Source of the DNA: Syncephalis fuscata
Taxonomy: Eukaryota > Zoopagomycota > Zoopagomycetes > Zoopagales > Piptocephalidaceae
Reading direction: 5' to 3'
Assembly: GCA_025786725.1 (NCBI GenBank)
Contig: JAHLTZ010000040.1
Span: forward strand, 116,980 to 180,979
DNA length: 64,000 nt
Positions 44,801 through 47,389 of this stretch are shown one piece after another. The position numbers and the translations under genes were made by a program. Positions within the stretch are counted from its first letter, which is position 1. Each line of letters opens with the position of its first letter. The notes under the pieces are model-generated. The model worked only from the letters and a program-made list of their open reading frames with translations. It made no database searches and had not been told where the DNA came from.

Positions 44801-47389
44801 TCAATCCCAACATTCTTGTTGATATCGGCCGGTACGTTTTAATGTTGTTATTAATGTACGTGCTTCTTCCGGCGATAAATGACCTTGTTCAATAAATAGC
44901 TCACAAAAAGCATCGGCCACATCTTCTGGCATACGAGTGGATTTTCTATAAAATATTTAACTATTGGTTGATATGGATAGACTAATTAGTAAATCATATT
45001 ACTTACCCACACACATAAATGAATCCTTGTTGACTATAAATAGTCGTCCAAATGAGTGATGCTTGTTCACGAATGACCTGTTGCACATATCGTTTATCAT
45101 CCTAATAATAGTAAATTAGTTAATTAATGGTTATTATTCTATTTTAATTGTATAACTCACTTGATCCCGTGAAAATGCGGTAAATAATTGTAGTGCATTT
45201 TGTGTGCACATGGTCTTCCATTCATCTTTAAAATAAAAATCAGACTTTTCATGTCGACAGCCAAATATAAGAATATTATCTATAGCAATAGCCATTATAA
45301 GTACTAATAATTAAATAAGTAGTTTATAGGCATACCGTGCTGGTTGGTAATGACACGTTCTTCGAGTAAGGAACGCATAGGTGCTAGTCCAAGACCTATA
45401 TATATGTTATAGTTATAGTTGTATATAGCTATAATCTACCCATTTATTAATACACTATAAACGATCACTTACCAGGAGCAATTAATATGATGGGACCAGT
45501 GGATGGTAGTCGTAATGTGCCACGTCGAATCCACACCGGTAGAGCGATTGGGGCTATTGTTATAAATAATTAGTATTTACTTAATATTCAGTAAACGCTT
45601 GGTACTTGCTATTTTTATTTAAAACTTCTAATTCGGATAACCAACGGGTAAAAACACCGCTACGTGGAGTTGATAGACGTGTTCGGTATTTGACAATGCC
45701 TATAAGTAATTGAATTGAATTTTGATGAACCTAGTATAGCTATGCTTTAAACCTGACTCTTATTTATATTGCTAATTGATCTTACTTGTGGAGAAGATGC
45801 TATAGAAAATGATCGACGTCTTAATAAAGGAAATATTTCTAATAGATAATCTAGTGGAATTTTAATTGAATTAAAGTCCTCTAATATTTCAAAGGCTGTA
45901 CGGCGCATCCGATAACAATAAGCGTATAAATCATCCTATTACATCGAATTAGCATCAATTAACATCTATTTACCTAATAGTATGTAGATTATTTACTTGG
46001 CCTTCAGCCGAACTGAAAAACTCTAATTTCTCGGCATGTTCTGGATCCTGTGCAAAATGCGCAGTCAATTCGAAAAACGAGCGACGTGGCACAGAAAATA
46101 TATCAAGCCAGTATTGGCATAACTGGCGTAAAGTTAGTACCATATTCAATCCAGTTGGTAGTGGATAATCTAAAGGCAGTGTTAGTTTAAAGCTACCTAT
46201 TATTCATATTAGCTAACCTCGATCTGTGGCACAGATTTGAACTGATCTATCAGCTTCATTTAGTAGGCCAATATAATCAAGAAATGCATCGACATCTTGA
46301 ATACGGTTTTCTGGCATAATATCGAGAATATCACCAGGCTGAAATCTACAGCATTAATTAATTAATAGCGTAAAAGTAGTTAACAAATAAACCTACGGAG
46401 GCAATTGTTCGAATGAAAGCTCGACCAAACGTACATCTTGAAAATGGTCAGTTGCCGTAATTCGTTCATTCTTTGTCAATTGGCCATGATAATCACCGGA
46501 ATGCCAATCCATTACTGAATGGCACGGTGGCGGTTTATCTACAAATGTTATAGGGAAACTCGGTGGCAGAGTGTAGCAATAATAAAGATGTAACCAATAA
46601 CTAGTTTAAAGTTTTAGTCTAATTGAAAGGATATAGTGTGCTATCGGGTATCTCCTCCATTGTAGTAGGTAAAGGAAAGAGATTGCCAAGTGCTTGCCAG
46701 ACGGCATCAAGCCATGGATCCAATGCTCCATCCAGTCTGTATTTACGCATAATTTAGTGGTGATATTTATAGATGAAATAAGCCTACCCCAAGTAATGCT
46801 GATCATCGCCATCGCCACGTACGTAGAATGGGTGACCACCCAATTGTTGTAAACGCTTGTACAGCTTCTTGGCTGGATAATTATACCTATAACAACAATA
46901 ATTAGTTTGTCAGTCATATTATGCCAAGTGTGTCTACTTTTCGTAGGAAGAATCACCAAGACCAAAAACGCTGTATTGCATCTGATACAAAGCATCTCTG
47001 GGCAGATCTTTACGTAGTAAAAATCGCCAGAATTTCTATGATGCTATGTTAGTTGAACAGTTTGGGTAACCTAAACAACGACTATCCTACTTTCATATTA
47101 TCAGGCTCTTCGCCTTGGCCAGTGGTTGAAACTATAAATATTACCAGTTTCTCTTCAATTAGCCGAGTCTATTGCCAACAGGGTCAGTGCATTGTTAAAT
47201 AATATTGTCTATAAATCAGTAGATTCGTTACTTACTCGGTCGTAGTCGTCGAGAGCAAACAGCGCCGGTTGGTAGTGTCGACGTTTGGCCGCACGACGAA
47301 TACGCTCGGCTGCGTCAGCTGCGTTGCCAGTTTGTGAACCATATAGAATGAGTAGGCGTGGTCGTGCATCCGCAAGTATTATCTGCCAT
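44801..47389 (-). CDS. TAH18: TAH18/NDOR1-like NADPH-dependent diflavin oxidoreductase
   Basis: Electron donor to Dre2 in cytosolic Fe-S protein assembly. Flavodoxin-like FMN domain: [48 protein letters not shown]. Linker: [33 protein letters not shown] domain: [13 protein letters not shown], a stretch of CPR-type connecting sequence, RRRSFSI. NADPH domain: [34 protein letters not shown] and a C-terminal W in QQECWD. About ten introns; one (46571-46634) is AT-AC. The start is uncertain. MADN at 47389 is one base out of frame with the conserved [10 protein letters not shown], while the in-frame ATG at 47445 would add an unusual hydrophobic leader; one extra base near 47375 would reconcile the first. 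The stop is at 44801. Confidence 0.9.
46571..46634 (-). other. AT-AC (U12-type) intron in TAH18
   Basis: On the coding strand the 64-nt intron begins ATATCCTTTC, a perfect match to the U12-type AT-AC 5' splice site, and ends CTACAC. It joins PDSTL in phase 2 to [12 protein letters not shown]. No GT donor exists between the last conserved exon residue and the in-frame TAG, and GC donor options give the wrong frame. A loose branch-like TCTTTATT lies about 12 nt before the 3' end. Confidence 0.78.

Follow-up and report, generated by a model that had tools for sequence, protein, structure and literature searches.

The 64-nt segment running from position 46634 to 46571 on the minus strand of the window (the whole 64,000-nucleotide stretch of Syncephalis fuscata DNA analyzed here) has the features of a minor-class (U12-dependent) AT-AC intron in the TAH18 gene, and we hold this assignment with high confidence. 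It is based on the donor, the reading frame, the minor-spliceosome genes of S. fuscata, and a trace that the donor appears to have left in the deposited proteins of other fungi.

An AT-AC junction in TAH18

The TAH18/NDOR1 gene lies at 44801..47445 on the minus strand. In a model made by hand, 16 coding exons are separated by 15 introns (13 GT-AG, one GC-AG, and one AT-AC), and the product has 596 aa. A domain search of the spliced 596-aa product returned all three expected domains (flavodoxin, FAD-binding, and NAD-binding). The model aligns with fungal orthologues over its full length, and all 16 exons are open. The AT-AC intron (46571..46634, minus strand; 64 nt, phase 2) separates the flavodoxin and FAD-binding parts of the protein. 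It reads ATATCCTTTC...ATTGCTACAC on the minus strand, between the flanks ...GATAGCACACT and TCTGCCACCGAG, which places the junction on the coding strand in the context AGC ACA CT|ATATCCTTTC...ATTGCTACAC|T CTG CCA. The donor ATATCCTT (46627..46634, minus strand) fits all 8 bases of the U12-type 5′ splice-site consensus RTATCCTT. The acceptor CTACAC (46571..46576, minus strand) has a YAC end and, in phase 2, restores the conserved join. The earlier note had given this intron its exact coordinates, sequence, and phase, and its description of the donor as a perfect U12-type site is upheld.

The best protein match to the model is BDF19DRAFT_472185, a deposited S. fuscata protein. In the deposited S. 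fuscata TAH18 (P0001), HYLG is joined to FPITF and the 38 residues LDGALDPW...LPPS are missing; the public model skips an exon in place of the AT-AC splice. The exon upstream of the intron, encoding LDGALDPW...DST plus CT (46635..46736, minus strand), is absent from the deposited protein, and the downstream exon, LPPSFPITF... (46397..46570, minus strand), starts there at FPITF. The deposited model also drops 12 residues at the GC-AG intron (45554..45609, minus strand; donor GCAAGT). Adjoining TAH18, the plus strand of the window at 44163-44579 contains an open frame rich in Arg, Ser, and charge, with a splicing-factor-like composition and no Pfam match.

Joins across the junction were enumerated by pairing GT, GC, or AT donors with AG or AC acceptors between the neighboring TAH18 introns and retaining those that were in frame, free of stops, and kept the downstream exon. 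Thirty-two joins passed and none uses a GT donor, which agrees with the claim that no GT donor is available before the in-frame stop. The AT-AC splice had also been called the only one that leads to LPPSFPITF. This was slightly too strong: by hand count, nine of the 32 joins keep LPPSFPITF, the AT-AC join among them, and the other eight either use nonconsensus AT or GC donors or gain or lose residues relative to homologues. The AT-AC join, AGCACACT to TCTGCCACC, gives a protein in line with Basidiobolus EVL-LPPSYRIRF. The motif RTATCCTT is by itself not rare, with 5 occurrences observed in the window against 5.8 expected. The weight of the TAH18 donor comes from its place, at a required junction and before an in-frame stop, and from its apparent read-through in 14 of the 120 homologues listed.

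The consensus for the U12 branch site is TTCCTTRAY, about 10–20 nt before the 3′ end of the intron. Motif and duplex scans of the TAH18 AT-AC intron detected no TCCTTRAY and nothing above chance. The best candidate, ATCTTTATT (46581..46589, minus strand), is degenerate, with 5 of 9 consensus matches, and its A lies 12 nt before the intron end. The duplex of ATCTTTATT with S. fuscata U12 has an energy of −7.2 kcal/mol, compared with a median of −5.7 and a 5th percentile of −8.8 for 300 single-base shuffles. The candidate is at a suitable distance from the 3′ end but is not better than chance, and the branch site is the weakest point of the U12-type assignment. In two homologous proteins that retain the intron (P0033 and P0053), the residues A-L-I and R-L-N would be compatible with CTTAAY ∼10 nt before the junction, by a hand back-translation that is no proof.

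Minor-spliceosome genes and other minor-type introns

The earlier note had proposed a search for the minor snRNAs and for the 65K/48K/35K/25K proteins. In the S. fuscata genome, U11 (47.5 bits; Rfam cut-off 39) and U6atac (37.8 bits; cut-off 33) score above their cut-offs. U12 scores below (34.6 bits; cut-off 53) and was accepted as a gene on the strength of an intact 5′ branch-recognition segment. U12 contains GAGUAAGGAU, a segment that fits branch sites present in other S. fuscata introns, TATCCTTAAC for example, and U11 and U6atac are each able to form 6 pairs with the donor ATATCCTT. Fourteen prokaryotes used as controls gave matches below the cut-offs only (U6atac in 8 of 14, U11 in 3, and U12 in 3), so sub-cut-off snRNA scores alone mean little. 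U4atac was found neither in an Rfam search that scored 48 of 793 candidates nor by two patterns, the first of which was the complement of S. fuscata U6atac under the U4/U6 pairing scheme. Two candidates from the U6atac-complement pattern, L025 and L026, were dismissed by eye on their sequence (L025 resembles acidic coding sequence), and the sole match of the wobble pattern was the antisense of U6atac itself. Two weak U6atac matches, L004:1501-1619 and L005:1501-1619, lie 64 kb apart on contig C46 and have equal scores of 18.9 bits; a third, L003, is an ordinary U6. Compared with the Rfam consensus, the first stem of the U11 gene (L007:1501-1682) contains an insert of ∼55 bases.

Among the minor-spliceosome proteins sought, orthologues of U11-48K and U11-25K were found. 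The C-terminal exon of U11-48K, at L027, matches human U11/U12-48K (8r7n_F) with an E value of 4.6e-10, and U11-48K proteins are deposited for both S. fuscata (P0121) and S. plumigaleata (P0122). The zinc-finger exon alone is not specific, being a better match to GTSF1 (E 3.9e-5) than to U11-48K (0.03). The family PF05253 is a weak marker that also exceeds its cut-off in 1 of the 14 control prokaryotes, and the deposited S. fuscata protein (P0121) contains no Pfam family at E <= 0.01. U11-25K, at L030, matches PF18036 with 38.1 bits, or 46.6 bits on hand-joined exons. CENATAC (PF14968) had no match in the S. fuscata genome and none in any control, in a search that had no positive control.

Genome-wide, the pattern TATCCTTN{15,45}TCCTTRAY has 17 matches, compared with 3 for the reversed pattern. 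A looser pattern, which takes CCTTRAY and ends in YAC, matched in 37 rows, part of them overlapping, versus 3 reversed. Both patterns would miss the TAH18 intron itself, so their counts are lower bounds. By design they also favor AC ends. Thirty loci from the looser pattern, 28 of them distinct, were compared by the base that precedes TATCCTT, which is A in 17, G in 4, and T or C in 7. The seven T/C-preceded loci are probably chance matches. Frames open for at least 30 codons on both sides are present at 1 of these 7 and at 18 of the 21 A/G loci, a comparison biased to open since the frames were chosen for openness.

Sixteen distinct joins were tested against Pfam and NCBIfam, and in ten a family extends across the junction (8 AT-AC and 2 with GT donors). 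The families are MTG1/YlqF, AAA ATPase, Aladin, lipid-droplet hydrolase, Trs85, SMC hinge, RPB5, formin FH2, HECT, and CDC45. For the other six joins (L008, L016, L032, L037, L041, and L042), these collections yielded no informative family. In the RPB5 intron (L043), a GT-AG end set by hand gives a better protein join than the AC end proposed by the script. Identical stretches occur on different contigs in L013/L022 (C24/C287) and L020/L024 (C256/C299), which look like duplicated or haplotype contigs. Taken with U11, U12, U6atac, U11-48K, and U11-25K, the further minor-type introns bear out the prediction that a fungus outside the Dikarya would have both a minor spliceosome and a U12-type intron.

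Apparent traces of the junction in other fungi

A gene caller that reads through CT|ATATCCTT produces the protein sequence L-Y-P. The homologues were compared at the protein level, in a sample of 120 listed out of 2497 TAH18 homologues found, and 14 of the 120 carry a Y-P trace after the junction (11 with Y-P right after the junction residue and 3 with L-Y-P). The background frequency of 209 in 73,104 positions predicts 0.34 in 120. Three other columns of the alignment are richer in Y-P and were taken as ordinary conserved residues. S. fuscata belongs to the Zoopagales, within Zoopagomycotina. The carriers are Syncephalis pseudoplumigaleata, S. plumigaleata, Thamnocephalis, Paraglomus, Rhizophagus irregularis (P0042), Entrophospora, Ambispora leptoticha, Cetraspora, Gigaspora rosea, Dentiscutata, Phycomyces nitens (P0033), Pilobolus, Umbelopsis isabellina (Q-Y-P), and a chytrid (JEL 0842). 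The lineages with the trace are Zoopagales, Glomeromycotina, Mucoromycotina, and one chytrid. Two of the models, P0033 and P0053, retain the entire intron and finish in T-LPPSF, as expected from AC|N. In P0039, Y-P is followed by I, a misfit to CCTT that only splicing of the model at this point would explain. The remaining 106 of the 120 homologues listed are without the trace; in these, the intron may be spliced out, may have been converted, or may be gone. From these protein sequences, the TAH18 intron looks old in fungi and commonly mis-modeled, and the read-through suggests its common descent across them.

MTG1 provides a second AT-AC case. The S. fuscata gene (L009, contig C1) has a 65-nt AT-AC intron with TTCCTTAAC between VRDAR and IPLSS. 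The junction in the deposited S. fuscata MTG1 is identical to the AT-AC join and was probably derived from transcript data; the public annotation already contains one AT-AC splice product. R-I-P is missing at the MTG1 junction in 35 of the 120 homologues listed, of which at least two have an ordinary substitution and some miss the whole region. The Dentiscutata MTG1 model (P0187) retains RISFKF...PQY|IPLSS, which would fit ATATCCTTT...TAC. Seven models of Mortierella relatives have QH|IPLSS at this point, which would fit CAC. Since the AT-AC junctions of TAH18 and MTG1 are damaged in public proteomes, surveys of annotated introns can undercount.

Interpretation and relation to known minor introns

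Minor-class splicing of the TAH18 intron is very likely. In the pathway we propose, U11 would recognize the donor ATATCCTT and U12 would engage the branch region of the intron. U11 at the donor would then be replaced by U6atac, presumably with the participation of a U4atac that escaped detection. The intron would be released at CTACAC, and the flavodoxin domain would be joined to the downstream LPPSFPITF exon. The intron looks old in fungi, its phase-2 position apparently kept in one or more chytrids as well as in Zoopagales, Glomeromycotina, and Mucoromycotina.

AT-AC termini alone are no proof of the minor class, and removal of the intron by the major spliceosome would fit a branch region without a U12-type motif. 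However, the donor is the full 8-base U12 consensus and not merely AT, minor snRNAs and proteins are encoded in the genome, and other lineages preserve a trace of the donor, all of which make this alternative improbable. Use of a different splice, either the deposited exon skip (HYLG-FPITF) or another in-frame join, has in its favor that P0001 contains the skip and that as many as 32 in-frame joins exist once AT, GC, and AC are allowed. We regard it as very improbable, since the skip costs 38 residues including DGxLDPWL, present in the other 11 deposited homologues compared, and the alternative joins lack consensus donors or alter the conserved length.

It is scarcely credible that the AT-AC intron is mimicked by an assembly error or by decay of the gene. 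Some contigs do look duplicated (L013/L022 and L020/L024), with nothing of the kind at TAH18 itself, where 16 open exons align with orthologues, and the donor trace recurs in independent genomes. The minor-class assignment of the TAH18 intron remains our preferred interpretation.

Minor introns are already established in early-diverging fungi. U12-type introns and minor snRNAs have been described in Rhizophagus irregularis and Basidiobolus meristosporus (Larue and Roy, 2023; PMC10639083), with 205 minor introns in the former, which has all four snRNAs, and 249 in the latter. According to the same source, they also occur in Spizellomyces and Neocallimastigomycetes. In S. fuscata, by comparison, U4atac is undetected and strict patterns give tens of introns. 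The deposited R. irregularis TAH18 (P0042) carries the Y-P trace at the same junction as the S. fuscata intron. The Larue and Roy study classified the annotated introns of 3107 species and inferred, with caveats, a pronounced loss in the ancestor of Zoopagomycota. Syncephalis is absent from its main text and may be among the species in its supplementary tables. It is the sole paper on minor introns and Zoopagomycota found in the literature searched. No report of a minor spliceosome in Syncephalis was found in a search with preprints, subscription journals, and supplementary tables outside its scope. The papers found that name S. fuscata concern other subjects, by their titles, and NDOR1 is named by no paper among the matches listed.

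Zoopagomycotina, for which no report was found, is an added lineage that joins the fungi with a minor spliceosome. The conserved and mis-modeled AT-AC junction is a more useful result than a new lineage member, and the 14 TAH18 trace cases could serve at once as a test set for estimating the age of one U12 intron across fungi. We give roughly even chances to the broader proposal that ancient AT-AC minor introns persist across early-diverging fungi and are often garbled in gene models, that part of the annotation-inferred loss in Zoopagomycota is an annotation artifact, and that the S. fuscata set is mostly AT-AC with some branch sites relaxed.

In Mucoromycotina, a few AT-AC and GT-AG U12 introns were described from ESTs in Rhizopus oryzae and Phycomyces blakesleeanus (PMC2846911); TAH18 is unmentioned in the portion of that article available. 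The deposited P. nitens TAH18 model (P0033) appears to retain the same TAH18 intron, unspliced. For Lichtheimia corymbifera (Mucorales), the minor snRNAs other than U4atac have been detected, with U12 and U6atac reported to have unusual 3′ parts (PMC4133162). U4atac is undetected in both Lichtheimia and S. fuscata, whereas the long insert in the first stem of U11 is a feature of S. fuscata that differs from the Lichtheimia account.
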